NCBI RefSeq assembly: GCF_027111355.2
Contig: NZ_CP114291.2
Span: 868,001-932,000, forward strand
Reading direction: 5' to 3'
Length of the DNA stretch: 64,000 bases
Source: Flavobacterium eburneipallidum
GTDB lineage: Bacteria > Bacteroidota > Bacteroidia > Flavobacteriales > Flavobacteriaceae
Shown: positions 12,502-39,715 of the stretch, piece after piece
Numbering within the stretch: the first letter of the stretch is position 1
How the letters are laid out: every line of letters begins with the position of its first letter
The notes under the pieces: model-generated
Told to the model about the DNA's origin: nothing
Seen by the model: only the letters and a program-made list of their open reading frames with translations
Databases searched by the model: none
Translations under genes and position numbers: made by a program

Positions 12502-13422
12502 CTAACTGTTTTTAACTCTATATTTACCCGGTGTCGTCCCAGTTCTTTGTAAAAAAGAAGAAGTAAAATGCTGTATCGACGAAAATCCGCAAGAATAAGC
12601 AATATCCGACATGGATTTGTTTTTAGGGTTTTGCATCAATACAATGGCTTTTTCAATTTTAAGATTTATGATGTAACTATTTGGAGGATAACCAGTTAGT
12701 CTTTTTACTTCATACGTAAATTTGGTTTTCCCCATCCCAAAACGATGCGCTAAATCGTCGATATTCCATTTTTTGCTAATATCTTCCGAAATGATTTTAG
12801 TGAAAGTTTCAATAAAATTGGTTTCTTCCTCGGTTTTGAGACTTCTAGACGAGAGATGGCGATACAAATCGATGAGTAAATTCTCTAAAATATTACCCAC
12901 CATAATTTCAAAACCTTCTTCTTGATCGGCTAATTCTTTGCGAATTTCAGCAAAATATTTTTCAAAATCTTTGGCTTTTTCTAAAACGGCATTGCTATTA
13001 TCGGCAATTAATTCGCCCAGACTATGTTGGAATTTTTGAGACAATTTAGTCCATTTTCCTAGATTTAATTTCTTCTTTTGGTCATATTCTACTGGCTTTA
13101 AAATAATCCAATTGATGTAACCAATGTCCATTTTTCCATTTGGACTTCCGTTCCAATGCCATGGTGCAGTTACCGATAAATTACCAGGTAGTAATTCAAT
13201 CTGATTGCCTTCGACAACCCAGTCGTATTTACCACTGGTTACAAAATGAATTTCGATTCCATCATTCAAGTGCGGACGCATATTTTCGTCCATTTGCACT
13301 TTCGTAAAACGCATACTTCCAAACTGCTTGATGAAAGGCAAATTAGCCAATGGACCTTGGTTTTTTTCATGCCACCAAACTCCAGAATTTCCAACATTGT
13401 TTTTTGAATTGATTTGATCCAT
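12502..13422 (-). CDS. AraC-family transcriptional regulator, probable activator of the pectin locus
   Basis: A 306-residue cytoplasmic regulator. The N-terminal half (about 40-115) is a cupin-like sensor domain (HFVTSGKYDWVVEGN, LLPGNLSVTAPWHW). The C-terminal half (about 205-303) is a double helix-turn-helix AraC DNA-binding domain, with the signature MSDIAYSCGFSSIQHFTSSF followed by TGTTPGKYR. It is transcribed divergently from the first gene of the large pectin locus, with 251 bases between starts that contain an 11-bp inverted repeat. By position it is the likely local regulator, sensing a released sugar such as L-rhamnose or L-fucose, although the ligand is an inference. No hybrid two-component or sigma/anti-sigma regulator is visible in the window. 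Confidence 0.85.
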   Translation of the reverse strand: MDQINSKNNVGNSGVWWHEKNQGPLANLPFIKQFGSMRFTKVQMDENMRPHLNDGIEIHFVTSGKYDWVVEGNQIELLPGNLSVTAPWHWNGSPNGKMDIGYINWIILKPVEYDQKKKLNLGKWTKLSQKFQHSLGELIADNSNAVLEKAKDFEKYFAEIRKELADQEEGFEIMVGNILENLLIDLYRHLSSRSLKTEEETNFIETFTKIISEDISKKWNIDDLAHRFGMGKTKFTYEVKRLTGYPPNSYIINLKIEKAIVLMQNPKNKSMSDIAYSCGFSSIQHFTSSFLQRTGTTPGKYRVKNS

Positions 13423-13673: not shown

Positions 13674-16175
13674 ATGACTTCAAAGCAACAGCGTAACATA
13701 TTTTTAATTTTTTTTCTAATAGGAATGCTCTTTTCAGCCAATGCTGCCGAAATTTGGGTCGCACCAAACGGAAAAGATACTAACGAAGGAACAAAAGTAA
13801 GTCCTTTAGCAACCGTACACATGGCATTGAGAAAAGCTAGGGAATTCCGTCGATTAAAAGACGCATCGGTAAAAGGAGGAATTCATATTATCATCAAAGA
13901 CGGAACCTATTATTTTGATGAGCCTTTGTTTGTAAGGCCAGAAGATTCAGGAACAGCTGATAGTCCAACAACTATTGAAGCCGATGTCAATGCAAAACCT
14001 ATTTTTAGCGGTGGAATCGAAATCAAAAATTGGAAAAAAACCACAACTTCAATAAATGGATTAAAATTAGGAATGGTTTGGGTAGCTGATGCTCCTGAAA
14101 AAGCGGGTGAAATCATCAATTACCGACAATTGTGGGTGAATGGAAAAAAAGCCGTCAGAGCCAAAAGCACAGCTGGAAATCAAATGGACAGAATTCTTTC
14201 ATGGGATGCTGCAACAGAAACTTGCTGGATTCCTTTCAAGGATAAATCGATTAAATTTCAACCCGGAATGGAAATGTTCATCGTACAATGGTGGGCAATT
14301 GCCAATCTTCGAATTAAAAATATCGAGGTGAAAAAAGACAGCGCCCGACTTTCATTCGAAAAACCAGAAAGTAGAATTCAAAGTGAACACCCTTGGCCAG
14401 CACCTTGGATTTCGAAAAATAACGGAAATTCAGCATTCTTTTTAAACAACGGAATGTCAATGCTGAACGAAGCCGGAGAATGGTATTTGGACAGAAAAAA
14501 AGCCAAAATATATTACATTCCAAGAGCAGGAGAAAATATGGCTTCCGCCAAAGTGACTGCTCCGGTTTTAGAAAATTTAGTTGAAGTAAAAGGAACGATT
14601 GACTCTCCAGTGCACGATGTAAAGTTTAAAGGAATTTCGTTTCAGTACAGCAATTGGCTTCGTCCTTCTCAGCAAGGTCACGTTCCGTTGCAGGCAGGAA
14701 TGTATTTATTAGATGCTTACAAATTGAAAACTCCAGGAACGCCAAATCAGGCTTCTTTAGAAAATCAGGCTTGGGTGGGAAGACCAAGAGCAGCTGTTGA
14801 AGTGAATTTTGCTAATAACACGATTTTCGAATCTTGTAGTTTTGAGCATTTGTCTTCTACAGGACTGGATTTGCATAAAGGAACAAATAACAACAAAGTA
14901 CAAGGAAATCTTTTTAAAGATATTGGTGGAAACGGAATTAATTTGGGTGTTTTCTCCGAAGAAGCTTTCGAAGCGCATTTGCCATTACAAGTAAAAGATG
15001 ATAGAGAAGTTTGTTCGAATGAATTAGTTGCTGATAATATGATTACTGATGTTGCCAATGAAGATTGGGGATGTTTAGGAATTGCAGCTGGTTTTGTGAA
15101 GAATTTGACTATTGAACACAACGAAATTTCAGATGTAGCTTACAGCGGAATTTCGATGGGTTGGGGTTGGACACACACTGAAAATGTGATGAAAAACAAT
15201 AAAATTATTGGAAATAAAATTCATCATTATGCCAAACATTTACACGATGTGGCTGGAATTTACACGCTTTCATCGCAGCCAGACAGCCGAATAGAAGAAA
15301 ATTACATTGATAAAGTGTACAACAGTCCGTATGCTCACGATCCATTTTTATGGCTGTATTTGTATACCGACGAAGGTTCACAACATTTTACGATTAAAAA
15401 CAATTGGATTCCAATTAAGAAAATTTTAAAAAATAACAATGGTCCAGCTGGGAATGTTTGGAAAGATAATTATGCTTTTGTTGATCCAAAAATCAAGGAA
15501 AATGCAGGTATTCGTGCACCTTTTGCAAATTTGAAAAAAGAAGTAGTTGTTGATGAGGCTTGGGGATTACAAGAAATGCCAAAATCGGTAGCGATAGAAT
15601 TAATCGGGAAAAATTTTGATATTGAAAAAATCAAATCGACGATAAAAGGTTTCCGAATTGTAGGCGAAGAATTGTACCAATGGGAAAATCATCTGGTGAT
15701 TTATGGTTTGATGAATCAGCCAGAAAGAACAAAAAGAAAACTGGCTCTAGCTTTTCCTGAATTAGAAATTAAAATCTACGAAAATCCAGTTTATGATTTT
15801 CAAAATTTCGAAAGATGCAAGGATTCAAAACCAGCATCCGAATGGGAAAATATTGTATTGACTGCCAATTTAGTAGCTGATGAAAAAATGCAAAAAGAGT
15901 ATGTGGATTATCACACGACTCAATTTGAAAAATGGCCGGAAATTGCTAAAGGTTTCTGTAATGCCGATTTCCAACAATTGCAGGTTTTCAAAAACGGAAG
16001 ACAATTAATGTTAGTAATCAGTATTCCAAAAGGAGAAAGTTTGGATAAATTAAATCCAAAAACTACCGAAAACAATCCGCGTGTTGACGATTGGAACGCC
16101 TTAATGAAAAAATACCAAACAGGAATCGAGGGAACAAAACCAGGAGAAGTTTGGATGTTTTTGAAGAAGCTTTAG
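13674..16175 (+). CDS. GH141-like beta-helix glycosidase fused to an L-rhamnose/L-fucose mutarotase-type domain
   Basis: An 833-residue exported protein with a signal peptide ending near residue 24 (FSANA/AEIW). Residues 25 to about 640 form a right-handed parallel beta-helix of the GH141-like kind. Conserved pieces are IWVAPNGKDTNEGTKVSPL, FESCSFEHLSSTGLDL, and NEISDVAYSGISMGWGWT. GH141 includes an alpha-L-fucosidase from rhamnogalacturonan II breakdown. The last 109 residues (from about 725) look like the RhaM family (PF05336, COG3254): EYVDYHTTQFEKWPEI contains the expected active-site His (H747) and the WPE motif, and the domain ends GEVWMFLKKL. RhaM-type proteins interconvert anomers of L-rhamnose or L-fucose. 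A 60-80-residue segment of unknown kind links the two. A fused hydrolase and mutarotase is unusual. The GH family call is moderate; the mutarotase call is fairly good. Confidence 0.7.
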   Translation: MTSKQQRNIFLIFFLIGMLFSANAAEIWVAPNGKDTNEGTKVSPLATVHMALRKAREFRRLKDASVKGGIHIIIKDGTYYFDEPLFVRPEDSGTADSPTTIEADVNAKPIFSGGIEIKNWKKTTTSINGLKLGMVWVADAPEKAGEIINYRQLWVNGKKAVRAKSTAGNQMDRILSWDAATETCWIPFKDKSIKFQPGMEMFIVQWWAIANLRIKNIEVKKDSARLSFEKPESRIQSEHPWPAPWISKNNGNSAFFLNNGMSMLNEAGEWYLDRKKAKIYYIPRAGENMASAKVTAPVLENLVEVKGTIDSPVHDVKFKGISFQYSNWLRPSQQGHVPLQAGMYLLDAYKLKTPGTPNQASLENQAWVGRPRAAVEVNFANNTIFESCSFEHLSSTGLDLHKGTNNNKVQGNLFKDIGGNGINLGVFSEEAFEAHLPLQVKDDREVCSNELVADNMITDVANEDWGCLGIAAGFVKNLTIEHNEISDVAYSGISMGWGWTHTENVMKNNKIIGNKIHHYAKHLHDVAGIYTLSSQPDSRIEENYIDKVYNSPYAHDPFLWLYLYTDEGSQHFTIKNNWIPIKKILKNNNGPAGNVWKDNYAFVDPKIKENAGIRAPFANLKKEVVVDEAWGLQEMPKSVAIELIGKNFDIEKIKSTIKGFRIVGEELYQWENHLVIYGLMNQPERTKRKLALAFPELEIKIYENPVYDFQNFERCKDSKPASEWENIVLTANLVADEKMQKEYVDYHTTQFEKWPEIAKGFCNADFQQLQVFKNGRQLMLVISIPKGESLDKLNPKTTENNPRVDDWNALMKKYQTGIEGTKPGEVWMFLKKL

Positions 16176-16304: not shown

Positions 16305-17369
16305 ATGTTAAAAATAGCCATTTTAGGTTTAGGAGAAGGAAGAAGTACAATGTCGGCCGCTTTGTCGAGCTCAAAATTAGAGTTGGTAAAAGTGTGTGAT
16401 AGTAACGAAGAGTTGTGTAAGCAAAGAGCTAAAGAATTTGATTTCCATTCTTATGCCACCAATTACGATGAACTTTTAAATGATAGCGCAATCGATATCA
16501 TTGCGATTTATACACCAGATCATTTGCATGCTGAACATGTAAAAAAAGCCTTGTTGGCTGGAAAACACGTGGTTTGCACCAAGCCTTTCATTGACGATCT
16601 TTCGGATGCGAAGGAGTTATTGGAGTTAAGCAAAAGCACAGGAAAGAAAGTATTTATTGGTCAAAGTTCACGTTTTTTTGAACCAGCTAAAAGACAAAGA
16701 AAAGATTTTGAAGCAGGAGTAATTGGTGATTTGATTACAATAGAATCGCATTATCATGCGGATCACCGTTGGTTTTTAAAAAAAGAATGGTCGTTGTTAC
16801 AATCATTCAAATGGTTGTACGGAGGATTGAGTCATCCTGTGGATTTTATTCGTTGGTATTTGCCTAATATCGAAGAAGTAATGGGTTATGGAATGATCAG
16901 CAGCAACGGAAAAACAGCAGGCTTGAAAAATGAAGATACAATGCACTTTATTTTCAAAGCGACTGATGGACGAATTGCCAGAGTTAGTGGAGTCTATACT
17001 TCGCCAACACAGCCAACCAAAAGAGATAGTGGAATGAGTGTTATTTTAAGAGGGACCGAAGGAGCAAGTCAGGCAGATTATCATGAATTGCGTTATTCTG
17101 TTACCGATAAAGAAGGCGAAGAAAAAATCATTCACTGGGGAGATGCAACGCTTAAATATTATTTCCGTTTTGAAGGACAAAGTCATCATGGTGGGGAATA
17201 CCAAAACTATTTAGACTATTTTGCAGATAGTATTGAGCAAGGTTTTACAGCGTATCCGGATATGAAAGAAGGAATAGGAACCGTAGCTTTATTGCAGGCA
17301 ATGGACAAAACATTACAAACCGGAATGCCAGTAAAAATGGCGAATATTTTAAAAGAATATAACCTATGA
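16305..17369 (+). CDS. Gfo/Idh/MocA-family NAD(P)-dependent oxidoreductase
   Basis: A 354-residue cytoplasmic protein without a signal peptide. The Rossmann motif ILGLGEGRSTM is at residues 6-16, and CTKPFIDD (about 91-98) replaces the usual EKP active-site turn with TKP. The C-terminal alpha/beta domain includes YGGLSHPVDFIRWYLPN. Family members oxidise or reduce hydroxyls of sugars, often at C3 or C1. Its stop overlaps the start of the symporter gene by four bases (ATGA), so oxidation of the sugar imported by that transporter is a reasonable proposal. The exact substrate is unknown; a role in redox-type glycoside cleavage is another option. Confidence 0.85.
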   Translation: MLKIAILGLGEGRSTMSAALSSSKLELVKVCDSNEELCKQRAKEFDFHSYATNYDELLNDSAIDIIAIYTPDHLHAEHVKKALLAGKHVVCTKPFIDDLSDAKELLELSKSTGKKVFIGQSSRFFEPAKRQRKDFEAGVIGDLITIESHYHADHRWFLKKEWSLLQSFKWLYGGLSHPVDFIRWYLPNIEEVMGYGMISSNGKTAGLKNEDTMHFIFKATDGRIARVSGVYTSPTQPTKRDSGMSVILRGTEGASQADYHELRYSVTDKEGEEKIIHWGDATLKYYFRFEGQSHHGGEYQNYLDYFADSIEQGFTAYPDMKEGIGTVALLQAMDKTLQTGMPVKMANILKEYNL

Positions 17370-18949
17370 ATAATACCATCTACGATAAATTAACTGCTTT
17401 AGACTTTATAATAGTTGCTGCTTATTTAGTGATATTATTGGTTATTGGATACATTGTTAGTGTCAAACAAAGCAAGAAGAATGAAACGCTTTTTATGGCG
17501 GGAAATTCGTTGAATTGGTATAATATTGGATTCAATATGTGGGGAACTAATGTTGGGCCATCTTCATTATTAGCTTTTGCCAGTATTGGATATACCACTG
17601 GAATTGTAGCAGGAAATTTCGAATGGTATGCCTTTGTTTTTTTACTGCTTTTGGCTATCGTTTTTGCACCAAAATACATTGCGAGCAAAGTAAGTACAAT
17701 GCCCGAATATATGGGAAAACGCTATGGTGATAGTACGCAGACCATTTTAGCATGGTATGCCATGGTGAAAATTTTGGTAAGTTGGTTGTCTTTGGGATTG
17801 TTTAGTGGAGGCGTTTTAGTACGTCAGATTTTAGGGATTCCGATGTGGCAAAGTGTGACAGTTTTAGTGATTTTTTCTGGAATTTTTACCTATGCCGGAG
17901 GATTGAAAGCCATTGCCAAAGTGAATGTTTTTCAGATGATTTTGTTAATTGTTGTATCGCTTACCTTATCCTATTTAGGTTTACAAAAAGTAGGCGGAAT
18001 CGAAGCTTTAATTGCAAAAACGCCATCAAATTTTTGGAATTTAGTGCGTCCTGCGGATGATGCTCATTATCCCTGGCCTGCTATTTTATTAGGTTATCCT
18101 GTGGCTGCAGTAGCTTTCTTTTGTACCGATCAATCGATGGTACAAAGCGTATTGGGAGCCAAAAATTTAGAGCAAGGACAATTAGGAGTTAATTTTATTG
18201 GTTGGTTAAAAGTGATGGCATTGCCATTATTTATTTTACCGGGAATTTTGTGTGCCGTTTTATATCCAGAATTAGGAGAAAATTCCGATTTGGCTTATAT
18301 GACAATGGTAACCAATTTATTTCCAAGTGGAATGAACGGTTTGGTTATTTGTGTGATGATTGCTGTATTAGTAGCTACAATTGGTTCTTCATTGAATGCG
18401 TTGAGTACGGTTTTTACCAATGATATTTATGTGAAGAAAATGAATCCTGCGGCAACTATCAAGGATCAGATTAAAGTAGGTCGTATCACCATTGGAGTAG
18501 GGTGTATTGTTTCTATTCTGATTACAGTAGCGATTGACAATATCAAAGGGCAAAATTTATTCAACATCTTTCAGGCAGTTTTAGGCTTTTTAGCACCATC
18601 TTTATCTGTTGTGTTTTTGTTGAGTATTTTTTGGAAGCGTACCACAAAGAGAGCTGTAAACTGGACACTTTCATGGGGTTCGGCTTTTAGTTTATTCGTT
18701 GGAGTATTGTATTTATGGATTTTTCCAGCCGATGTTTACACAGCCTGGCCACACTTTTTATTGATTTCTTTTTACATTTTTGCCGTTTTAATGTTAACAG
18801 CCATTGTCATTTCATTAGTGGATAAAAATCCCGAAACTAATTTCGAAATCGAGTCAGAAGTTCCTAAAACCAGTAAAAAAGTCAAATTGTTGTTTGGTTT
18901 ATTAGGAGTAACAATTGTCGTTTTATATCTCATTTTTAATTTCAATTAA
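17366..18949 (+). CDS. Sodium:solute symporter (SSS family), probable sugar importer
   Basis: A 527-residue inner-membrane protein with about 13-14 helices. The SSS-family start TALDFIIVAAYLVILLVIGY leads into FMAGNSLNWYNIGFNMWGTN, the conserved first substrate-cation region. ATIGSSLNALSTVFTNDIY near residue 340 is the typical helix-8 sodium-binding segment of SGLT-like transporters. It should carry a monosaccharide released in the periplasm, such as L-rhamnose, L-fucose or a uronic acid, into the cytoplasm with sodium. It overlaps the upstream oxidoreductase by four bases, and the GH78 gene starts one base after its stop. Confidence 0.9.
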   Translation: MNNTIYDKLTALDFIIVAAYLVILLVIGYIVSVKQSKKNETLFMAGNSLNWYNIGFNMWGTNVGPSSLLAFASIGYTTGIVAGNFEWYAFVFLLLLAIVFAPKYIASKVSTMPEYMGKRYGDSTQTILAWYAMVKILVSWLSLGLFSGGVLVRQILGIPMWQSVTVLVIFSGIFTYAGGLKAIAKVNVFQMILLIVVSLTLSYLGLQKVGGIEALIAKTPSNFWNLVRPADDAHYPWPAILLGYPVAAVAFFCTDQSMVQSVLGAKNLEQGQLGVNFIGWLKVMALPLFILPGILCAVLYPELGENSDLAYMTMVTNLFPSGMNGLVICVMIAVLVATIGSSLNALSTVFTNDIYVKKMNPAATIKDQIKVGRITIGVGCIVSILITVAIDNIKGQNLFNIFQAVLGFLAPSLSVVFLLSIFWKRTTKRAVNWTLSWGSAFSLFVGVLYLWIFPADVYTAWPHFLLISFYIFAVLMLTAIVISLVDKNPETNFEIESEVPKTSKKVKLLFGLLGVTIVVLYLIFNFN

Positions 18950-18950
18950 T

Positions 18951-21134
18951 ATGAAACTATTTTCTTCTTTACGCCAAAGTTTTAAAACGATTGTTTGCGT
19001 TGTTGCGGTATTCTTTTTGTCAGAAGCGGCTTCGGCTCAAACCTGGATTTGGTATCCGGGAGATTTCGAAGTTTGGTTAAGCAATAAAATGCAGGTAAGA
19101 CGTACAGAACGCGAAGCAGTATTTCCACCGCTTTGGCAATATTACAGTCCGTATGCCTTGGTCACTTTTCAGACAGAAGTAGATATTCCTGCCCCAGACG
19201 ATGTAAAAATCTACTCGGAAGGCTCTTTTCAATTACTTTTAGATGGTGTTCAAGTTTACGGGCAACCCAAATCATTAAAAATTCCAGCCGGTAAACACAA
19301 AATTTCCTTTAAAGTGTATAATCAGGAAGTGTTACCAGCTATTTATATTGCTGGTAAGTATGTGAAATCAGATGCTTCCTGGAAGGTGACTAATGAAGAT
19401 AAACTTTGGATTGATGAAAATGGAAAAGCACAGCAATCCGGTACACCATGGGTGCCTGTTGGTTCCTGGAATTTTGATGCGCCAGAAAACAAGCCTTCTG
19501 AATTTAAACTAACAACTACACCCTGGAATGCCAAAAAAACAGAAAAAACAGCAGCAGGTCAGTTGGTTGATTTTGGTAAAGAAACCTTTGGTTACATTAA
19601 AATTCACGGCTTAAAAGGAAAAGGTAAACTAGCATTGTATTATGGTGAATCTCGTGAAGAAGCGATGGATACGGCCAGATGTGAAACATTAGACCATTTA
19701 TCTTTTGATGGAAATCAAGCGGAAACGTATACTCATAATGGGTCGAAAGCATTTCGCTATGTTCAGGTAGTAGCAGATGCATCGGTAAAATATGATTCCA
19801 TTTCGATGCTTTATGAATACTTGCCATTGGAGTATCGTGGTGCATTCAAATCTTCGGATCAAGAATTGAATAAAATTTGGGATGTGTCGGCTTACACGAT
19901 GCATTTAACATCCCGTGAATTTTTTATAGACGGAATCAAACGCGACCGTTGGGTTTGGTCTGGCGACGCTTACCAAAGTTATTTAATGAATTATTATTTG
20001 TTCTTTGATTCGGCTTCCGTAGAACGAACGCTGTTGGCTCTTCGTGGTAAAGAACCTGTGACAGCTCATGTAAATATCATAATGGATTATTCGCTGTATT
20101 GGTTTGTGGGTGTTTACGATTACTATTTGCACACGGGCGATACGAAATTTATCAAAACTTTTTATCCGCGAATGAAATCATTGATGGAATTCTGTTTAGA
20201 AAGAAGAAACAAAAACGGATTTCTGGAACCATTAGAAGGCGATTGGGTTTTTATTGATTGGGCAAACGGATTACCAAAAACGGGTGAGGTTAGTTTTGAG
20301 CAAATGCTTTTAGCGAGAAGTTTAGAAGCAATGGCAGTAAGTGCTGAAATTGCAGGTGAAAAGGATGACCAAAAAGAGTATAAAAAATTAGCGGATGATT
20401 TAAAAATAAAATTATTTGATGTGTTTTGGGATAAAAAAGAAAACGTGATGAAGCACCAGCGTATAGACGGTAAAATGCAGGATATTGTTACCAGATACGC
20501 TAATATGTTCGGTATTTTTTTCAATTATTTTAATGAAGAACAAAAACAAAGTATAAAAAAGAAGGTGTTGCTCAATGATGATATTCTTCAAATCACAACA
20601 CCCTACATGCGTTTTTACGAGTTGGAAGCGTTGTGTGCCATGGGCGAACAAGATTATGTGTTGAAAGAAATGAAAGACTATTGGGGCGGAATGTTAAAAG
20701 AAGGCGCAACTTCTTTCTGGGAAGAATACAACCCAAACAAAAAAGGAACAGAACATTTAGCGATGTACGGACGTCCTTATGGAAAAAGTCTTTGCCACGC
20801 CTGGGGTTCCAGCCCAATTTATTTGTTGGGAAAATATTATTTGGGTGTAAAACCAACTGCTCCGGGTTATGCTGAATATGAAATCAAACCCAATTTAGGC
20901 GGACAGCAATGGATGGAAGGAAAAGTGCCAACGCCAAACGGAGAAGTTGCCGTATATTGTAGTACCAAAGAAATCAAAGTAAAAGCATCTGAAGGCGAAG
21001 GAAAATTGGTTTTCGAAAGTTCAAGCAAACCGAAAGTAAGTTCAGGAACGATTACAGAATTGGCAAAAAACAAATACCAATTGATCGTAAAACCGAATGT
21101 GGAGTATAAAGTAAGTTATAAAGCAGTTAAATAA
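18951..21134 (+). CDS. Alpha-L-rhamnosidase, GH78
   Basis: A 727-residue exported enzyme that removes terminal alpha-L-rhamnose. The ATG at 18951 is preferred over an in-frame ATG at 18915, because it gives a clean signal peptide (MKLFSSLRQ... to SEAASAQ) and lies one base after the upstream stop. An N-terminal beta-sandwich is followed by the (alpha/alpha)6 catalytic domain. FFIDGIKRDRWVWSGDAY (about 320-337) is the GH78 counterpart of the DxPxRERxGWTGD motif, and GDWVFIDWANG and FWEEYNPNKKGTEHLAMYG carry other conserved acidic residues. A C-terminal beta-domain follows. Its stop overlaps the next ATG by one base. Confidence 0.9.
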   Translation: MKLFSSLRQSFKTIVCVVAVFFLSEAASAQTWIWYPGDFEVWLSNKMQVRRTEREAVFPPLWQYYSPYALVTFQTEVDIPAPDDVKIYSEGSFQLLLDGVQVYGQPKSLKIPAGKHKISFKVYNQEVLPAIYIAGKYVKSDASWKVTNEDKLWIDENGKAQQSGTPWVPVGSWNFDAPENKPSEFKLTTTPWNAKKTEKTAAGQLVDFGKETFGYIKIHGLKGKGKLALYYGESREEAMDTARCETLDHLSFDGNQAETYTHNGSKAFRYVQVVADASVKYDSISMLYEYLPLEYRGAFKSSDQELNKIWDVSAYTMHLTSREFFIDGIKRDRWVWSGDAYQSYLMNYYLFFDSASVERTLLALRGKEPVTAHVNIIMDYSLYWFVGVYDYYLHTGDTKFIKTFYPRMKSLMEFCLERRNKNGFLEPLEGDWVFIDWANGLPKTGEVSFEQMLLARSLEAMAVSAEIAGEKDDQKEYKKLADDLKIKLFDVFWDKKENVMKHQRIDGKMQDIVTRYANMFGIFFNYFNEEQKQSIKKKVLLNDDILQITTPYMRFYELEALCAMGEQDYVLKEMKDYWGGMLKEGATSFWEEYNPNKKGTEHLAMYGRPYGKSLCHAWGSSPIYLLGKYYLGVKPTAPGYAEYEIKPNLGGQQWMEGKVPTPNGEVAVYCSTKEIKVKASEGEGKLVFESSSKPKVSSGTITELAKNKYQLIVKPNVEYKVSYKAVK

Positions 21135-22792
21135 TGATTCAAAAAAGTAAATATATTCATTGGTTATTCTTGGTTTTTTTGAGCTTTCAATTTTCAGTAA
21201 AAGCTCAAAATCCAGCTTGGCAACCCGCTTCTTTTGAAGTGGTAAAATCCAATTACAAAGCATTCAAAACAACCCAATACGCACACGTTTTTTCAGGTAG
21301 CAAACACAATATTATAGGATTGGCAACCGAATTGCAAGGGTTGACAGGAGTAGAACTTCCTTTGGATGCTTACAAAAAAGGAACGAATGCTCCATTACAA
21401 TTAAAATTCAAGGAGCCGGTCCAGGTGCTGATAGGAATTTTTCAAGAAAAAAATAATTCAGATTACCGCCAATTAAACAATGCCAAATTAGTTCTGGAAA
21501 ACGGTGTTACCATCACAGGTTTGCCACCCGTAAATGTATATGCGATTTCTTATCCAAAAGGAACTCAAATTATAAATCCCGAAGGCAAAGGCTTGTTCGC
21601 CGTTTTAGGTGTAATCAAAAACAATCAACCAATAGTTTCCCGTAATGCCCAATTATTGGATGGAAAACTTTGGAATATGCCTTACATAATCGAAGGATTC
21701 TCCGATGAAAAACCACTTTTCGAAATTATTGGTGGCGAAAATAAGCCAGTAATCGATGAAGGATTTCCTGGAACCGAAGGAATTCAAGGCGGTTTTGAAG
21801 GAGGTCGCGTGGTGAAAGTTGGCGATGCCTATCATATGTTTCCAACGGAAAGAGCTGGTGAAGTTGGTATAGAAATGTATTACGATCGTGTAAAAACTAA
21901 AATCGGACATTGGACAAGTAAGGACGCCGTTCATTGGAAAAGAGAATCCACTATTTTGCAAGCCAGGGGAACTTATGCCATCACCGAAGATGATAATCCG
22001 ATGAACGATCGTCGTGCGGCGATTTGGTCGTATATGCCGGTTTTTAACGAAAAAGCAAATAAATGGTACGGCTATTATTTGGCTTATACCGTTCACAAAG
22101 AAATTCAACCGAATCATTCTTTTGGAAGAATTTGGCGTTGTGAATCAACGGTCGATGGAATCAACGGAATCGGTGGTCCGTACAAAGATATGGGAATCAT
22201 TATGGAACCGGGTTTGGATTCACAGCCTTGGGAAGGACGTCAGGGAGTGGCTTCCTTTTTTCCGTATAAAGTCGGCGACAACTATTTCGGATTTTACAGC
22301 GGAGCCTATCCGTTTGAATCTTGGGCAGATTATCCGACGAAATCAGGAAAAGGCTGGTTTGTGGCTTTGGCAGAATCGAATAGTTTGGAAGGTCCGTGGA
22401 AACGATTAAACAAAGGTTTAGAACCGATAAAAACGATCCATCCACAGTTTGTTGAAAATCCAATTGTGAGTCAGTTGCCAAACGGTTTGTACATCGCCAT
22501 TTTTGACGGAGGCCCTGAAGGATGGGGACATCATTTGCCCAATATGATTGGATACACACTTTCAAAAGACGGAATCAATTGGGGAGAAGCACGCTATTTG
22601 CCAATAGAAACCAAAGTGGATAAATGGTGGGATATTATGCGAACACCGCTTTGTTTAATTCCCGAAGGAAATGACGTTTATACAATCGTGTACAACGCCA
22701 TCGATCTAAAAAGAAGATTTCACCCAACAGGAATGGTAAAAGTAAAACTGAACAAAGACGTGATGGAATCGAGATTGAAGGAGTTGAAGTAA
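21134..22792 (+). CDS. Exported beta-propeller protein, glycosidase candidate of unassigned family
   Basis: A 552-residue exported protein (signal peptide about 1-23, SVKAQ/NPAWQ). Residues up to about 200 look like a beta-sandwich. From about 210 on there are repeated propeller-like strands, such as GGRVVKVGDAYHMFPTERAG, RRAAIWSYMPVFNEKANKWY and VENPIVSQLPNGLYIAIFDG. The layout of acidic residues at the start of blades (the latter part of EGIQGGFEGGR, the DDNPMNDRRA segment) recalls the GH43/GH32/GH117-type five-bladed folds, but no family motif is complete enough to assign. The one-base overlap with GH78 suggests it acts on the same side chain. Confidence 0.6.
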   Translation: MIQKSKYIHWLFLVFLSFQFSVKAQNPAWQPASFEVVKSNYKAFKTTQYAHVFSGSKHNIIGLATELQGLTGVELPLDAYKKGTNAPLQLKFKEPVQVLIGIFQEKNNSDYRQLNNAKLVLENGVTITGLPPVNVYAISYPKGTQIINPEGKGLFAVLGVIKNNQPIVSRNAQLLDGKLWNMPYIIEGFSDEKPLFEIIGGENKPVIDEGFPGTEGIQGGFEGGRVVKVGDAYHMFPTERAGEVGIEMYYDRVKTKIGHWTSKDAVHWKRESTILQARGTYAITEDDNPMNDRRAAIWSYMPVFNEKANKWYGYYLAYTVHKEIQPNHSFGRIWRCESTVDGINGIGGPYKDMGIIMEPGLDSQPWEGRQGVASFFPYKVGDNYFGFYSGAYPFESWADYPTKSGKGWFVALAESNSLEGPWKRLNKGLEPIKTIHPQFVENPIVSQLPNGLYIAIFDGGPEGWGHHLPNMIGYTLSKDGINWGEARYLPIETKVDKWWDIMRTPLCLIPEGNDVYTIVYNAIDLKRRFHPTGMVKVKLNKDVMESRLKELK

Positions 22793-22822
22793 ATATAGAA
22801 CGAGGATTTAAGCGATTTTAAT

Positions 22823-22851
22823 CTTTGTCAAAGTTTTGAACTTTGACAAAG
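22823..22851. repeat. 13-bp perfect hairpin, second copy of family D
   Basis: 22823-22835 (CTTTGTCAAAGTT) pairs with 22839-22851 around the loop TTG. The arms are identical to those of the hairpin between nrdB and nrdA at 9357-9389. It lies 30 bases after the stop of the propeller gene. Confidence 0.75.
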
Positions 22852-22894
22852 TTGTTAAGAAGAAAAAAATCCGTGGAAATTAGTTTAATCTGCT

Positions 22895-22941
22895 CCTCAA
22901 AGTCGGAGACTTTGAGGATGTGTTTTTCAGTCTTTGACTGA
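22895..22941 (+). repeat. Tandem double hairpin, family C copy 1
   Basis: Hairpin 1: 22895-22904 (CCTCAAAGTC) with 22908-22917, loop GGA. Hairpin 2: 22927-22932 (TCAGTC) with 22936-22941, loop TTT. The same order of hairpins, with paired base changes, is found at 39721-39767. It lies 37 bases before the lipoprotein gene. Confidence 0.75.
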
Positions 22942-22977
22942 CCTTAAAGAAGAAAATAATAAAATTGAAGGAAATAT

Positions 22978-24114
22978 ATGAAAAATACAATGAAATATCT
23001 TTTTTTTGGAATAGCAACTTTGCTAATAGCGAGTTGTGCAACCAAATACAAAAAAAGAGAAATCAACGAAACCGTGATGCAGGAGATTTACAACGAAATC
23101 AAAACGCCTTACAAATACGGTTTGGTGATGGTGCCAACGGACAACTCCTATAAAATGGACTGCCCAAGCGTTTTTAGGAAAGACGGAAAATGGTTTATGA
23201 CCTATTTGATTTACGACGGAAGAGGCTACGAAACCTGGCTGGCCGAAAGCGATGATTTATTGCATTGGAAACATTTAGGAAAAGTAATGTCCTTTTCAGA
23301 AAATGAAAAACATTGGGATGTGAACCAAAAAGCGGGATATATTTCGTTGCAAGACCCAACTTGGGGCGGAAGTTACGAATGGGAAAAATACGATGACAAA
23401 TACTGGATGAGTTATTTTGGCGGAGACAGTAAAGGCTACGAAGCCGGAATATTGTCAATAGGAATGGCTTACACCAAGGAAGCACCGACAAAACCACACG
23501 AATTTCAGAGATTGGAAAATCCAGTTTTAACACCAAAAGACAAAGACGTAAGCTGGTGGGACAACAGCACAATGTACAAAAACAGCGTCATCCGTGACAA
23601 AGATAAATTGACGGGGCATAATTTTGTTATGTATTACAATGCCCGAGGCGACAGTTTGAAACCGCAAAAAGGTGCAGAACGAATTGGAATGGCAGTTTCA
23701 AACGATATGAAAACCTGGAAACGGTTCGGAAAAAATCCAGTTTTGAATAACCATAGAGGAATCACGGGCGATGCATACATTCAAAGAGTCAACGATACTT
23801 GGGTGATGTTTTATTTTGGTGCTTTTTGGACAGGTTGGGATCAAGGTGCTTTCAACCGTTTTGCAGTGTCGAACGATTTGATTCATTGGAACGACTGGAA
23901 AGGCGAGAATTTGATACAGTCGTCAGAACCGTATGATAATATGTTTGCCCATAAATCATTTGTAGTGAAACACAATGGTATTGTTTATCATTTCTATTGT
24001 GCCGTTAACAAAGCAGAGCAAAGAGGAATTGCCGTGGCAACTTCCAAGGATTTAGGTAAAAGTGAAATGAATTTTGTGGCTCCACCAGAGAAAAAAGAAA
24101 CTAAAAAGAATTAA
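22978..24114 (+). CDS. Lipoprotein beta-propeller, GH43/GH130-like glycosidase candidate
   Basis: A 378-residue lipoprotein. LLIASC places the lipidated cysteine at residue 20, so it should sit in the outer membrane, possibly facing outward. The rest is a propeller: MDCPSVFRKDGKWFMTYL at about 58-75, DDLLHWKHLGK, SNDMKTWKRF, GDAYIQRVNDTWVMFYFG and SNDLIHWNDW. The repeated D-(L/M)-x-x-W pattern is typical of five-bladed GH43, GH117 and GH130-like enzymes. The family cannot be settled by eye. An in-frame ATG at 22990 is an alternative start and would leave the lipobox intact. Confidence 0.65.
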   Translation: MKNTMKYLFFGIATLLIASCATKYKKREINETVMQEIYNEIKTPYKYGLVMVPTDNSYKMDCPSVFRKDGKWFMTYLIYDGRGYETWLAESDDLLHWKHLGKVMSFSENEKHWDVNQKAGYISLQDPTWGGSYEWEKYDDKYWMSYFGGDSKGYEAGILSIGMAYTKEAPTKPHEFQRLENPVLTPKDKDVSWWDNSTMYKNSVIRDKDKLTGHNFVMYYNARGDSLKPQKGAERIGMAVSNDMKTWKRFGKNPVLNNHRGITGDAYIQRVNDTWVMFYFGAFWTGWDQGAFNRFAVSNDLIHWNDWKGENLIQSSEPYDNMFAHKSFVVKHNGIVYHFYCAVNKAEQRGIAVATSKDLGKSEMNFVAPPEKKETKKN

Positions 24115-24119
24115 TATAA

Positions 24120-27527
<3,408 letters not shown>

Positions 27528-27542
27528 ATTTTAAAAGTATAG

Positions 27543-27607
27543 TTTGTCATTCCGTAGGAATTTTTACAACTGGAGCAACTAACGTGAGATTGCTTCGCAA
27601 TGACAAA
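27543..27607. repeat. Intergenic hairpin repeat, family B copy 2 (diverged)
   Basis: TTTGTCATTCCGTAGGAATT at 27543-27562 matches the left arm of family B. The right arm ends CGCAATGACAAA at 27596-27607, giving a 9-bp terminal stem plus further partial pairing. It lies between the GH2 and GH106 genes, 23 bases before the latter start. Confidence 0.7.
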
Positions 27608-27630
27608 GCAAATGGATAATAACAACAATA

Positions 27631-30600
27631 ATGTTTCCAAAAAAACACTTCTTTTTTATTTTATTACTTGCGGGAATCCTTTCCGCACAGGAAACCTATA
27701 AAAATGAAAACACATCATTTCAGCCCACAATCGAATCCTCAAAACCTTGGGTGTATTGGTATTGGATGCAAAGTGCCTATTCAAAACCCGGCATCACAGC
27801 CGATTTAGAAGCGATGAAACAAGCCGGAATTGGAGGTGCTTATTTGATGACGATAAAAGGGCCAGCAAATCCGCCCTTGATGGATCCGCCGGTTTTACAG
27901 TTGAGTAAAGAATTCTGGGACTTGGTACATTTTGCTTTAACCGAAGCAGACCGATTAGGCGTAAAAATAGCCTTTCATCCCGCCGATGGTTTTGCCGTTG
28001 CTGGAGGACCGTGGATTAGGCCTGAAATGTCGATGCAAAAAGTGGTTTGGGCAGATGTTACAATCAACGGAAATAGCTTCAAAAACCTGCAATTACCCGT
28101 TCCAAATCATTACAAAGAGTATTACAAAGATATCGCTGTGTTTGCCATTCCCGTTAAGGAAGATTATATCACATCCGATCAAAATCGTCCAAAAGTTACT
28201 TCCACTCTTGGCGATTTTGATGCTTCATTTTTGAGTGATTCAAAAAAAGATGATCAATTTCGATTAAAGGAAAAAGGCTGGGTTCAATACGAATTTGATC
28301 AGCCGTTTTTGTGTAAATCCATTCAAATTGAGAACAAAGGCAATAATTATCAGGCGCATCGTTTACTAATTGAAGTAAGTGACGATGGTGTAAATTTTAA
28401 AAGTCTCGGTCGATTGACAACGCCACGCCAAGGTTGGCAAGATACCGATGCGTTTTATACCCACAGCATCGTTCCGACAAAAGCCAAATATTTCCGTTTT
28501 GTTTACGATCCCGAAGGAACAGAACCAGGTGCGGAAGATTTAGATCCAGCCAAATGGAATCAGGGATTGAAAGTCGCAAAAATATATCTATCGAATGAGC
28601 CCCTGATTGACAATTACCAAGGAAAATCAGGAGCGATTTGGCGTTTGAGTCCGCAAACTTCTGTTGAACAAATTGAGAAAAATGATTGTGTGGAACAATC
28701 AAAAATGATTAACGTTTCGAAGTTTGTTGATGAAAAAGGTATTCTGAATTGGAAAGTGCCTTCAAAAGGAAATTGGCGAATTATTCGTTTCGGGCATACA
28801 TCCACAGGTCACGAAAATGCCACGGCAGGTGCAGGACGAGGTTTGGAAGTCGATAAATTCAATGCCGAAGCGGTTCGTTTTCAACTGGATCATTGGTTTG
28901 GCGAATTGCTTCGAACAGCAGGGCCTGAACTGGCATCCAAAGTGGTTAAAATATTGCATATGGACAGTTGGGAATGTGGCAGTCAAAATTGGTCGCCTGT
29001 TTTTCAATCCGAATTCAAAAAACGCAGAGGCTATGATATTGTAGATTATTTGCCAGTTATGGCGGGTATTCCCATAAACGATATTGAAACTTCGGAGAAA
29101 ATATTGTATGATGTTCGCAAAACAATTTCAGAATTAATTGTCTATAATTTCTTTGGCACTTTGGCGGATGAAGCCAAAAAAGCAGGAGTAAAATTCAGTT
29201 CCGAAAATGTGGCGCCAACGATGATGAGCGACGGACTTTTGCATTTCAAACACATCGATTATCCGAGTGGCGAATTTTGGCTGAAAAGTCCAACGCACGA
29301 CAAACCCAATGATATGCTCGATGCGATTTCAGGCGGACATATTTACGGAAAAGATATTATTCAGGCCGAAGCTTTTACGCAACTAAAAATGGATTGGGAC
29401 GAACATCCCGGAAATTTGAAAACTTTGGCAGACCGAAATTATGCCCTCGGAATCAACCGATTTTTCTATCACGTTTTTGTACACAATCCTTGGACGGACA
29501 GAAAACCTGGAATGACTTTGGACGGCGTGGGTTCTTATTTTCAAAGAGATCAAACTTGGTGGAAACCAGGAAAAGCCTGGGTGGATTATTGCCAGCGAGT
29601 GCAGTTTCAATTGCAAAAAGGAAAACCGGTTATTGATTTGGCGGTTTTTATTGGTGAAGATTTGCCGTCACGTTCGGTGCTTCCAGATCGATTGGTGCCG
29701 TTTATTCCGAATGTTTTTGGGAAGCAACGTCTGGAAAGTGAAGCCATCCGATTGAAAAATGTAGGCCAGCCAAGCATTAAAATACCAAAAGAAGTAACTT
29801 CTAGTAAAAATTCAACCGATTTGTCACAATGGACTAACGCAATGAATGGCTATCAGTACGATTCTTTCAACGCCGATGTTTTATTGCATAATGCCAAAGT
29901 TGAAAATGGGAAAATAGTTTTCAGTAACAGTATCGAATACCGTGCTTTACTATTTCCAGGAAGTCATAAAATGGCACCGAATAAAATAATTTCTTTGGCT
30001 GTAGCCGAAAAAATACTGGAGTTAATAAAGCAAGGTGGAACTGTTTTTGTGGATGAAAAACCAAATTTGCAACCCGGAATACAATCAGAAGCTGATCAAA
30101 AAAAACGGCAAAATGTTATTGATGAAATTTGGAATAACTCAAATGAATCAACTTGGAAAATTGGAAAAGGAACAATTATTAAATTACCATATTTAGGAAA
30201 CGATTTTTCAGGAATTGGAATTCCGAAAGATGTTTATTTTCCTAAATTAAGCAGGGCCGATGCCGAAACAATTGCCTGGACACACCGTAAATCGGAAACA
30301 GAAGATGTTTATTTTCTTTCGAATCAAAAAGAAGAAAAACGATCCTTTGAAGCTTCGTTTCGAGTAACTGGAAAAATACCGGTTTGGTACAATCCTGTAA
30401 CCGATAAAACATTGGCTTTAGCCAATTGGAAGATAGAAAATGGAAGGACAATTGTTTCGATACATTTAGATGCGAATGAATCCGGTTTTGTGATTTTTAA
30501 AGAAGAAACAAAAGAAATTTTGGCTCAAAGCAATCAAAAAGGTATAGAATTTGAGAGCGTTCAGACGTTGGATGAAAACTGGGAATTGCAATTTGATCCA

Positions 30601-31035
30601 GAATTTAAAGGTCCAAAAGAGGTTGTAAAAACAGATAAACTATTTGATTGGAGCAGTTCGGAAAATGATCAAATTAAGTATTATTCGGGAACGGCTACTT
30701 ATCAAAAAGAAGTGGTTTGGAAAGGAAAAACTGAAGATAAAATTTGGTTGGATTTGGGGACAATTGCCAATATTGCTGAGGTTAGTATCAACGGAAAAGA
30801 TTGCGGTACGCTTTGGACATTTCCTTATAAAGTCGCTATTTCTGATGCACTGAAAAAAGGAAAAAACACGATTGTTGTCAAAATCACGAATACTTGGGCA
30901 AACCGATTAATCGGCGACCAAAAATTGCCAAAAGAAGAAAAATTAACATGGACAACGGCGCCATTTCGTTTAGAAGGAGAACCGTTGCTTAAAGCAGGTT
31001 TATTAGGACCAGTAAGTATTGTAAAAGAAAAATAA
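27631..31035 (+). CDS. GH106-family alpha-L-rhamnosidase
   Basis: A 1134-residue exported enzyme (signal peptide to about residue 19, GILSAQ). The N-terminal barrel shows the GH106 hallmarks: KPWVYWYWMQSAYSKPGI at about 39-56, TADLEAMKQAGIGGAYL, and VKIAFHPADGFAVAGGPW at about 112-129. A discoidin-like insert (about 205-320) and later HMDSWECGSQNW and RGYDIVDYLPVMAG segments follow. The C-terminus (about 985-1134) is a GH2-type galactose-binding domain ending WTTAPFRLEGEPLLKAG. GH106 enzymes remove alpha-L-rhamnose from RG-I and RG-II, complementing GH78. Confidence 0.88.
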   Translation: MFPKKHFFFILLLAGILSAQETYKNENTSFQPTIESSKPWVYWYWMQSAYSKPGITADLEAMKQAGIGGAYLMTIKGPANPPLMDPPVLQLSKEFWDLVHFALTEADRLGVKIAFHPADGFAVAGGPWIRPEMSMQKVVWADVTINGNSFKNLQLPVPNHYKEYYKDIAVFAIPVKEDYITSDQNRPKVTSTLGDFDASFLSDSKKDDQFRLKEKGWVQYEFDQPFLCKSIQIENKGNNYQAHRLLIEVSDDGVNFKSLGRLTTPRQGWQDTDAFYTHSIVPTKAKYFRFVYDPEGTEPGAEDLDPAKWNQGLKVAKIYLSNEPLIDNYQGKSGAIWRLSPQTSVEQIEKNDCVEQSKMINVSKFVDEKGILNWKVPSKGNWRIIRFGHTSTGHENATAGAGRGLEVDKFNAEAVRFQLDHWFGELLRTAGPELASKVVKILHMDSWECGSQNWSPVFQSEFKKRRGYDIVDYLPVMAGIPINDIETSEKILYDVRKTISELIVYNFFGTLADEAKKAGVKFSSENVAPTMMSDGLLHFKHIDYPSGEFWLKSPTHDKPNDMLDAISGGHIYGKDIIQAEAFTQLKMDWDEHPGNLKTLADRNYALGINRFFYHVFVHNPWTDRKPGMTLDGVGSYFQRDQTWWKPGKAWVDYCQRVQFQLQKGKPVIDLAVFIGEDLPSRSVLPDRLVPFIPNVFGKQRLESEAIRLKNVGQPSIKIPKEVTSSKNSTDLSQWTNAMNGYQYDSFNADVLLHNAKVENGKIVFSNSIEYRALLFPGSHKMAPNKIISLAVAEKILELIKQGGTVFVDEKPNLQPGIQSEADQKKRQNVIDEIWNNSNESTWKIGKGTIIKLPYLGNDFSGIGIPKDVYFPKLSRADAETIAWTHRKSETEDVYFLSNQKEEKRSFEASFRVTGKIPVWYNPVTDKTLALANWKIENGRTIVSIHLDANESGFVIFKEETKEILAQSNQKGIEFESVQTLDENWELQFDPEFKGPKEVVKTDKLFDWSSSENDQIKYYSGTATYQKEVVWKGKTEDKIWLDLGTIANIAEVSINGKDCGTLWTFPYKVAISDALKKGKNTIVVKITNTWANRLIGDQKLPKEEKLTWTTAPFRLEGEPLLKAGLLGPVSIVKEK

Positions 31036-31043
31036 ATTTTTTC

Positions 31044-31101
31044 GCCACGAATTCACGAATTTTTATAATCCTGATTTGAAAATAATTCGTGAATTCGTGG
31101 C
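31044..31101. repeat. Perfect 18-bp inverted repeat before the esterase gene
   Basis: 31044-31061 (GCCACGAATTCACGAATT) pairs perfectly with 31084-31101 around a 22-base spacer. It lies eight bases after the GH106 stop and ends 18 bases before the next ATG, so any transcript running through it would fold there. Confidence 0.8.
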
Positions 31102-31119
31102 TAATAAAACATAGTAGAA

Positions 31120-32544
31120 ATGAAAAAAACAATTATTGCAATTTTAATGCTTTTAGGAAGCTTTCAAATCAATGCAAAAATCAAATTGCCGGCACTGTTC
31201 ACGGACAACATGATGTTGCAGCAAAAGGCGAATGCGCCAATTTGGGGCTGGGCAGAGAAGAACGCCAACATTACGATAAAAACATCTTGGGATTCCAAAA
31301 CCTACAAGCTGAAAGCGGACAATTCCGGAAAATGGAAAACAGAATTGCAGACTCCATCTTTTGGAGGACCTTTTACCATTGAAGTTACGGAAGGAAACGA
31401 AAAAGTAACCATCAAAAATATTTTAATTGGCGAAGTCTGGCTGTGTTCTGGTCAGTCGAATATGGAAATGCCTTTGAAAGGATTTCAGGGTCAGCCCGTA
31501 AAAAACGGCAACGAAATCATCGTGAAATCAACCAATAAAAACATCCGTTTGATTATGATTCCACGTGCAACGGTTTTAGAACCCAAAGATGATTTTGAAG
31601 GAAAATGGGAAGTGGCTTCACCAAAATCTACGGCAAATTTTAGTGCGACGGCTTGGTATTTTGGTTCGCTTTTGCAGGAAGTTTTGCAGGTTCCAGTAGG
31701 ATTGATTCACGTTTCCTACGGAGGTTCGAGTATGGAAGCATGGATGAATCAGGAAATGTTGAAAGATTTTGCAAGCGCCAAAATTCCGACTACAAAAGAA
31801 GAGTTGGCCAAAGACCCAAATCGCGTTCCGACGACTCTGTTCAACGGAATGCTTTCGCCTGTGATTGGTTACGGAATCAAAGGCTGTATTTGGTATCAGG
31901 GCGAATCGAATTACGAAAGAGCTTCGGAATATGCTGCTTTGATGAAAAAAATGGTCAGTAGTTGGAGAGGTTTGTGGAAGCAAGGCGATTTTCCGTTTTA
32001 CTACGCACAAATTGCTCCGTTTAATTACGCCCAATTTCATCCAAAAGACAATTTAGAGAAATACAATTCGGCTTATTTGAGAGAAGCGCAACTGAAAGCT
32101 TCGGCAGTAATTCCGAATTCAGGAATGGCGGTTTTGATGGATGTTGGCGAAGAAAATAACATTCACCCAATGGACAAGGAAAAAGGCGGAAACCGTTTGG
32201 CTTTTCAGGCTTTGGCAAAAACCTACGGAATCGAAGGCTTCGAATTTGAAAGTCCGAAATATAAGTCGATGGAAATAAAAGACGGTTCGGTAACGGTGTC
32301 TTTTGATAATGTTGAAAACGGAATAACGGCTTATGACAAAGAAGTTAAAGGTTTCGAAATAGCAGGCGAAGACAAAGTTTTCTATCCTGCAAAAACAGTA
32401 GTTCGAAGAAAATCAGTAGTATTGACTTCGGATAAAGTTGCTAAACCAGTAGCGATTCGTTATTTGTTTAAGGATTTTGCAAAAGCAGAATTGTTTAGTG
32501 GAGGTGGTTTGCCAATTTCGTCTTTTAGAACTGATGAGTGGTAA
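31120..32544 (+). CDS. Sialate O-acetylesterase-family (SASA) carbohydrate esterase
   Basis: A 474-residue exported SGNH-type esterase. The signal peptide ends around residue 19 (QINA/KIKL). The start KLPALFTDNMMLQQ is typical of the SASA/CE20-like family. An N-terminal beta-domain (to about 100) precedes the nucleophile S113 in CSGQSNMEMP; CIWYQGESNYERA (about 260) and a late His region (NNIHPMDKE) complete the likely active site. In a pectin setting it most likely removes O-acetyl groups from side-chain sugars rather than from sialic acid. Confidence 0.85.
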   Translation: MKKTIIAILMLLGSFQINAKIKLPALFTDNMMLQQKANAPIWGWAEKNANITIKTSWDSKTYKLKADNSGKWKTELQTPSFGGPFTIEVTEGNEKVTIKNILIGEVWLCSGQSNMEMPLKGFQGQPVKNGNEIIVKSTNKNIRLIMIPRATVLEPKDDFEGKWEVASPKSTANFSATAWYFGSLLQEVLQVPVGLIHVSYGGSSMEAWMNQEMLKDFASAKIPTTKEELAKDPNRVPTTLFNGMLSPVIGYGIKGCIWYQGESNYERASEYAALMKKMVSSWRGLWKQGDFPFYYAQIAPFNYAQFHPKDNLEKYNSAYLREAQLKASAVIPNSGMAVLMDVGEENNIHPMDKEKGGNRLAFQALAKTYGIEGFEFESPKYKSMEIKDGSVTVSFDNVENGITAYDKEVKGFEIAGEDKVFYPAKTVVRRKSVVLTSDKVAKPVAIRYLFKDFAKAELFSGGGLPISSFRTDEW

Positions 32545-32565
32545 GTTAAAGAAATTATAGATAAA

Positions 32566-32659
32566 GTTTGTCATTCCGTAGGACACGAGCGATAGCGAAT
32601 TGGCGAAGCAATCTCAAGTTAGTTGCTCACATTGCCGAGATTCCTACGGAATGACAAAC
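32566..32659. repeat. Intergenic hairpin repeat, family B copy 3
   Basis: 32566-32583 (GTTTGTCATTCCGTAGGA) pairs perfectly over 18 bp with 32642-32659, enclosing a 58-base insert. It ends 16 bases before the DUF5703 gene start. Confidence 0.8.
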
Positions 32660-32675
32660 GAAACTTAAAAATTAA

Positions 32676-35006: not shown

Positions 35007-35018
35007 AAGAGTATAACG

Positions 35019-35063
35019 ATTCCAGTTTCGGCTCCCTCTCCTTTGGAGAGGGCTGGGGTGAGG
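35019..35063 (+). repeat. Intergenic hairpin repeat, family A
   Basis: The stem CCCTCTCC (35033-35040) pairs with GGAGAGGG (35044-35051) around the loop TTT, flanked by CCAGTTTCGG and CTGGGGTGAGG. It lies 33 bases before the ATG of the PL1 gene, in the same orientation as the other copies. Read on the minus strand it encodes the spurious peptide LTPALSKGEGAETG. Confidence 0.85.
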
Positions 35064-35096
35064 TTCAATAGCAATTTAGAAAAATAAAATAAGAAG

Positions 35097-37550: not shown

Positions 37551-37569
37551 AATTGGTTTAAATTTTTTT

Positions 37570-37625: not shown

Positions 37626-37681
37626 TAAATTTTAATTTTTTAATCTGTGACAAAATTCATCTCATTAAATAAAATTATAAA

Positions 37682-39703: not shown

Positions 39704-39715
39704 TAATTTGTGAGT

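Follow-up and report, generated by a model that had tools for sequence, protein, structure and literature searches.

The pectin rhamnogalacturonan II (RG-II) is one of the most complex glycans found in plants. We analyzed a 64,000-nucleotide stretch of the Flavobacterium eburneipallidum genome (the window; positions 868,001 to 932,000 of contig NZ_CP114291.2) and, within it, the gene at 13674..16175 on the forward strand, which an initial annotation had described as a secreted GH141-like (glycoside hydrolase family 141) enzyme fused to a sugar mutarotase domain. That interpretation was partly supported, being right in outline and changed in detail. We consider it rather probable that the protein is an exported RG-II alpha-L-fucosidase with its own fucose-type mutarotase, which serves uptake by the neighboring symporter of the SSS (sodium:solute symporter) family.

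The open reading frame encodes 833 amino acids, and Pfam and a PDB sequence search recovered both annotated parts. The N terminus is signal-like, as judged by inspection (MTSKQQRNIFLIFFLIGMLFSANA followed by A), in keeping with the proposed secretion; the likely signal peptide covers residues 1 to 24 (13674..13745, forward strand, as are all features of this protein) and ends at ANA/A, and the alignment with BT_1002 (PDB 5mqp) begins at residue 21 and runs to residue 622 (E = 1.4e-197). The GH141 enzyme part (residues about 25 to 622; 13746..15539) contains the GH141_M insertion domain at residues 133 to 284 (14070..14525; 218.1 bits, cutoff 27) and a Pfam Beta_helix match (42.5 bits, cutoff 25.9). 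Its D525 and D566 align with BT1002 D523 and D564, a numbering offset of 5 being assumed constant, and these two residues were reported as critical in BT1002 (PMC10154630; here and below, statements on cited papers refer to the parts of them available to us). GH141 also includes a xylanase (PMC10154630). Judged by this alignment, the N-terminal part is a BT_1002-type GH141 enzyme with a predicted RG-II alpha-L-fucosidase role. The sequence beyond it comprises the 211 C-terminal residues, from near residue 623, in which a hidden Markov model search assigned residues 733 to 831 to the rhaM family PF05336 (40.5 bits, gathering cutoff 23.4).

An AlphaFold2 (AF2) model of these 211 residues showed two ferredoxin-like units: a first, degenerate one at residues 637 to 702 (15582..15779), without a Pfam match, and a second at residues 724 to 833 (15843..16172) that is the PF05336 domain by Pfam, model, and alignments. 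The predicted fold is of the dimeric alpha+beta barrel type, with the dimer apparently replaced by a one-chain tandem. The initial annotation had placed a single domain from about residue 725; the RhaM-type end stood, with the motifs DYHTTQFEKWPEI and GEVWMFLKKL both present, whereas the extra part starts about 100 residues earlier and holds another unit. The tandem alignment had 137 rows, more than half of them from closely related Flavobacterium loci, and one short row was dropped. Tyr743 (15900-15902) and His747 (15912-15914) were kept in 136/136 rows; they match the active-site Tyr and His of RhaM/FucM (E. coli RhaM Y18 and H22, which we take to be catalytic). The Trp-Trp pair of RhaM/FucM is important as well, and its second member, W807, was likewise kept in 136/136 rows, so that the active-site His and Trp are both retained; W754 also lies in this unit. 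All 38 members of profile A1 matched PF05336 at E<=1, and neither the 211-residue piece nor profile A1 had a sequence match in the PDB. A Foldseek search with the model found the L-fucose mutarotase 7byu among the top matches, at rank 16 (E = 1.9e-3). We also considered the first unit as a PF05336 homologue by sequence and rejected this, as it had no Pfam match and the rows confined to it in the structural search were mostly ACT-domain proteins; other relations are still compatible with these rows. The tandem is apparently an intramolecular version of the PF05336 dimer, in which the first unit would be a structural partner and the second would keep the active site.

An exported fusion of this kind had been thought unexpected, and the architecture search showed it to be neither unique nor rare. 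Of 1337 candidates with a similar length, 977 shared the C-terminal part (E<=1e-3), and by eye PF21231 and PF05336 both occurred in 119 of the best 120 of these 977; because so many proteins have the C-terminal extension and Tyr743 and His747 are invariant in it, we do not regard it as a chance addition. Many of the best 120 of 762 shorter proteins begin with a signal-like segment, and some are fragments of fusions. In a sample of 395 genomes from the phylum, 18 had a strong GH141_M match (E<1e-60), 15 of them with the tandem in the same frame; a sixteenth profile A1 match (G300) was a single-domain lipoprotein, and weak GH141_M matches (E above 1e-20) were left out of the retrieved loci. A class sample, also of 395 genomes and overlapping the first, gave 11 strong GH141_M matches and eight full tandems, one of them a separate gene. 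In the chosen families, GH141_M was found at E<=1e-20 in 18/101, 21/116, and 30/121 genomes. Among the named loci, which are the best 80 of 302 (75 titled Flavobacterium), all 80 had the tandem in a frame of at least 780 amino acids, and within the retrieved DNA 78 had an SSS gene and 78 a Gfo/Idh gene, the two without SSS being short contigs. These results indicate a common architecture in Bacteroidota, and databases already show it, in several records under the name L-rhamnose mutarotase; a literature search, which covered few subscription papers, found no published description of the fusion or module. At one locus (L151, 9247-11869), the GH141 and tandem-domain frames overlap in different reading frames, as a frameshifted fusion or as overlapping genes, and at L187-L192 GH141_M lies in very long frames (1113 to 1782 residues) with a lower score and another architecture.

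In the window, the fusion gene is followed on the same strand by genes for a Gfo/Idh/MocA-family protein (16305..17369), which has no signal peptide by inspection and is a candidate for a cytosolic enzyme that processes the sugar after import, and for an SSS (SGLT-type) symporter (17366..18949). Our survey of the GH141 surroundings covered 80 genomes, with as much as 20 kb per locus, and gave 88 rows, among them the window itself and one gene that was retrieved twice. In 42 rows the tandem was fused to GH141, and in 15 it occurred solely as a separate gene; nine separate tandem genes sit exactly between GH141 and the Gfo/Idh-SSS pair. Elsewhere, the tandem-Gfo/Idh-SSS block lies 5 to 8 kb from GH141 (L138, L147, and L148) or about 0.2 Mb away (G922), and in G990 it runs past the edge of the retrieved DNA. 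The separate copies are apparently exported, by inspection. Per genome, the initial survey gave tandem and SSS in 52, tandem only in three, SSS only in 10, and neither in 15 (Fisher P = 2.5e-7, without correction for relatedness); after follow-up, the counts were 54, 2, 10, and 14, with whole-genome searches for tandem and SSS covering four of the 14 (G975, G238, G394, and G166). Thus, SSS accompanied the tandem in 54/56 tandem genomes, and Gfo/Idh was present in 53 of those 54 (51 from the survey plus G990 and G922 by sequence), the exception being G699. The conserved partner of the tandem is the Gfo/Idh-SSS pair more than GH141. Coupling to the symporter, as first proposed, holds as a genetic link, and this link is stronger than the initial annotation could know, since elsewhere the same symporter is accompanied by a separate gene for the domain, apparently exported. 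In place of the free sugar assumed there, the characterized GH141 of this type releases a disaccharide.

That product, released by BT1002, is 2-O-methyl-xylosyl-alpha-1,3-L-fucose (PMC10154630; PMC7939467). Bacteroides thetaiotaomicron cuts 21 of the 22 RG-II linkages, the exception being the one within this disaccharide, which accumulates (PMC7939467). Beside the SSS gene we found three gene sets. The Gfo/Idh gene occurs in 56 of 63 SSS rows. A GH31 alpha-xylosidase gene with a B12/corrinoid methyltransferase gene occurs in the other seven, from six genomes (L111/L201 of G699, L178-L180, L182, and L183), and no SSS row has both sets. Two of these GH31 proteins reached 480 and 476 bits with the alpha-xylosidase model, whose cutoff is 606, and have no signal peptide by inspection. 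In Flavobacterium sp. CF136 (L032, 10677-14847), without Gfo/Idh, the fusion gene is followed by a GH31 gene, whose product shares 65% identity with the GH31 of G699, then by genes for a PhyH-family protein and for a protein without a Pfam match, and finally by SSS. In a search for an alpha-xylosidase gene elsewhere in Gfo/Idh-type genomes, close GH31 relatives were confined to G699, G760, G735, and G748 of 38 chosen genomes (63 to 67% identity, plus G699's own); the remaining GH31 matches had at most 45% identity and likewise occurred in 9 of 18 chosen control genomes, and we draw no conclusion from them. The GH31/corrinoid loci perhaps carry out B12-dependent O-demethylation of an RG-II sugar. 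An alpha-xylosidase and a putative O-demethylase are what the use of imported 2-O-methyl-xylosyl-fucose would need, and the Gfo/Idh protein would substitute for them elsewhere; the swap beside the same SSS fits a methyl-xylosyl substrate. The best solved relatives of the Gfo/Idh protein include DgpA (E = 4.3e-18), which we take to be a C-glycoside 3-oxidase. We tentatively propose, as a possibility less secure than the coupling itself, that the block of GH141, exported tandem mutarotase, Gfo/Idh, and SSS supplies the missing way past the linkage that B. thetaiotaomicron leaves uncut: the mutarotase may work on the disaccharide while it is still whole, at its reducing end, SSS may import this disaccharide, and the Gfo/Idh protein may be an NAD+-dependent alpha-(2-O-methyl)xylosidase of a new kind (or else a C3-oxidase triggering cleavage), doing the work of GH31 and the corrinoid or PhyH O-demethylase elsewhere.

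Sequence, predicted structure, and comparison show the domain identity, the conserved residues, the recurring gene block, and, by inspection, the signal peptide; from these we infer catalysis, substrate, anomer preference, and the Gfo/Idh role as follows. The GH141 part would cut 2-O-methyl-D-xylosyl-alpha-1,3-L-fucose from RG-II side chain A in the periplasm, releasing it as one anomer; the fused second unit would speed alpha/beta exchange at the freed reducing-end L-fucose; the neighboring SSS would import its preferred anomer; and the cytosolic Gfo/Idh protein would begin breakdown of the imported sugar. The gain from fusion would be an anomerase placed where the sugar forms, with relief of product inhibition as another possible gain.

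The sugar was judged from relatives of the second unit. In a 43-row tree, the second units came together in a single clade (99/96), with two single-domain lipoproteins as its sister group (joint clade, 100/99), and this divergent, separate clade sided with Bacteroidota single-domain proteins apart from RhaM (split 96/96). The second unit had no match at E<=1 to TIGR02625, the L-rhamnose mutarotase equivalog (cutoff, 99.6 bits). Fucose-type or FucP-like neighbors stood within about 1.5 kb at 14 of the 18 single-domain loci of the tree, the neighbors counted being relatives of the Amidohydro_2 lactonase, FAH hydrolase, or SDR (short-chain dehydrogenase/reductase) of L120 or of the MFS (major facilitator superfamily) genes of L105/L122; the labels lactonase, FucP-like, and "L-fucose operon" are partly our assumption. 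Of the other four loci, one (L210) has a GH29 relative (63%), and three (L107, L109, and L209) showed no such neighbor besides a 51-residue MFS end. In the F. eburneipallidum genome itself, one single-domain relative (L001) comes after an MFS gene, and a fucose-type mutarotase gene (L003, 1495-1839; L124, 9942-10286) adjoins a GH29-like frame (36% over 463 residues), two genes away from a PF01120 alpha-L-fucosidase gene. The second unit thus appears to group with Bacteroidota fucose-type mutarotases, not with RhaM, and because of the tree, the missing TIGR02625 match, and the neighbors of the single-domain relatives, fucose is our best guess for the sugar. Rhamnose specificity was rejected as first choice on the same grounds and seems less likely; of the two mutarotase types named at the outset, the fucose type is favored over the rhamnose type.

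The alternative that survives best is that of a working mutarotase for a free monosaccharide, released by other enzymes of the locus and imported by SSS: L-rhamnose, via the GH78-like and GH106 enzymes encoded in the locus, or else L-fucose or L-galactose. PF05336 includes true L-rhamnose mutarotases, and nine other Flavobacterium loci with the GH141 fusion have L-fucose-oxidation-like genes close by (L120 and L193-L200; lactonase and SDR in 9/9, FAH hydrolase in 8/9). Yet the second unit stands apart from RhaM, the genome already has a separate cytosolic RhaM (L002, 113.9 bits to TIGR02625), and it is GH31 alpha-xylosidase with putative O-demethylases that swaps with Gfo/Idh, so we regard this alternative as unlikely. 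Less probable still is a tandem that has lost its catalysis and instead works in sugar binding or docking, either by retaining the GH141 product or by recruiting the enzyme to the transporter. The degenerate first unit, the replaced Trp of the pair (D in 62/136 and E in 61/136 rows), and the dimer turned tandem would suit such a role, but the Tyr and His never vary, conservation is higher in the second unit than in the first (mean majority-residue frequency, 0.836 versus 0.704), and the stand-alone, apparently exported copies have no enzyme to anchor. That the genes are chance neighbors, the fusion with GH141 having arisen by drift and SSS and Gfo/Idh serving another RG-II sugar, is very improbable: GH141 often lacks the domain and two fused genes lack a close SSS, but the tandem stays with Gfo/Idh-SSS in three families, also when split from GH141, and strong GH141 was present in 16/16 full-tandem genomes of the phylum and class samples.

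Several observations weigh against an exported fucosidase with its own fucose-type mutarotase. The first Trp of the pair is lost, as it is also in L001 and L003, the single-domain relatives from the same genome; Foldseek puts fused monooxygenase-like and heme-protein barrels first, ahead of 7byu; the second unit is 16% identical to solved FucM (FucM_7byu), which itself is long-branched and stands with RhaM at the main split; and the bootstrap of the tree did not settle. As to domain arrangement, the full-length AF2 model was poor (predicted local distance difference test, 57; predicted template modeling score, 0.38), probably owing to an alignment filled with short rows, and was not used. In two genomes (G993 and G984), GH78 comes after the fusion and a close SSS is missing (best, 30 to 31% identity), five (G929, G886, G919, G840, and G881) have GH141-Gfo/Idh-SSS without the tandem, five of family f11 have GH141-GH31-corrinoid-SSS without it, and the compared genomes share ancestry. 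Whole genomes were searched for seven of these 10 SSS-only cases (two of the five GH31/corrinoid ones); in the five with Gfo/Idh, profile A1 found single-domain relatives only, one of which, in G881, is of the exported type and comes after another SSS gene. Because these 10 genomes have GH141 and SSS without the tandem, the mutarotase is not obligatory: it goes with the symporter usually, not always. At two loci (L020, 1420-1860; L204, 1432-1887), single-domain lipoprotein mutarotases directly follow an SSS gene, as a second exported form of the family.

Around these genes, the window holds a divergent AraC-family regulator gene (12502..13422, reverse strand), a gene for a GH78-like alpha-L-rhamnosidase-like protein (18951..21134, forward strand; open frame from TTG 18915), and the rest of an RG-II-type utilization locus (21134..61143, forward strand). 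The latter encodes an alpha-galacturonidase-like protein (58.9 bits, far under the model cutoff), a GH137-like protein with a partial match to a BT0996-type model, GH2, GH106, SASA esterase, DUF5703, GH127, BD-FAE, pectinesterase, GH28, and GDSL proteins, and further a SusC/SusD pair, DUF3826, DUF6298, an apiosidase-like protein, and GH28; for the RG-II families, we presumed some of the GH numbers. The pectate lyase PelZ model matched three proteins in part (35097-37550, 50662-52383, and 53185-54891), with scores far under its cutoff, and the 1052-residue protein at 54963-58121 matched DUF6298 over its full length.

This gene neighborhood suggests how bacteria may use the RG-II fragment left behind by the well-studied gut bacterium B. 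thetaiotaomicron. The locus family offers candidate genes to release, anomerize, import, demethylate, and cut the last disaccharide, in three interchangeable versions, and the exported mutarotase would be a transporter-linked one outside the sialic acid system, found both as a fusion and as a separate gene, in which the PF05336 dimer has apparently become a single-chain tandem.

Compared with BT_1002, the Flavobacterium protein has the near full-length alignment, GH141_M domain, beta helix, and Asp pair in common; it differs in that the 5mqp sequence stops where the tandem part starts, and the family f11 loci, which seem B. thetaiotaomicron-like, lack both Gfo/Idh and the tandem domain. The L-fucose mutarotase of Acidovorax avenae (7byu/7byw; PF05336/COG3254) is a single 120-residue protein, unlike the exported (by inspection), tandem, and fused Flavobacterium domain with its low identity and lost Trp. 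With the L-rhamnose mutarotase RhaM/RhaU (1x8d, 2qlw, and 6hhn), the domain shares Pfam family and fold, while lying outside the RhaM clade and without a TIGR02625 match. For the putative exchange of Gfo/Idh for GH31, there is a precedent in the NAD+-dependent GH188 sulfoquinovosidases, oxidoreductases that replace GH31 glycosidases in otherwise similar gene clusters; their substrate is different, and the enzyme described is placed in the SDR superfamily (PMC10755693). E. coli NanM with NanT works alike: the sialidase product is the anomer that NanT was suggested not to take, and the exported NanM feeds the anomer taken by this inner-membrane transporter (PMC8141875). NanM differs as a separate, Kelch-related protein for N-acetylneuraminic acid (PMC8141875). 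Like NanM, the Flavobacterium tandem is exported, by inspection, and genetically coupled to an uptake transporter gene. To our knowledge, NanM is not related to PF05336. A transport-coupled mutarotase is already known in kind from this system, and the interest of the Flavobacterium one lies in its pointing to genes for the last unbroken RG-II linkage.
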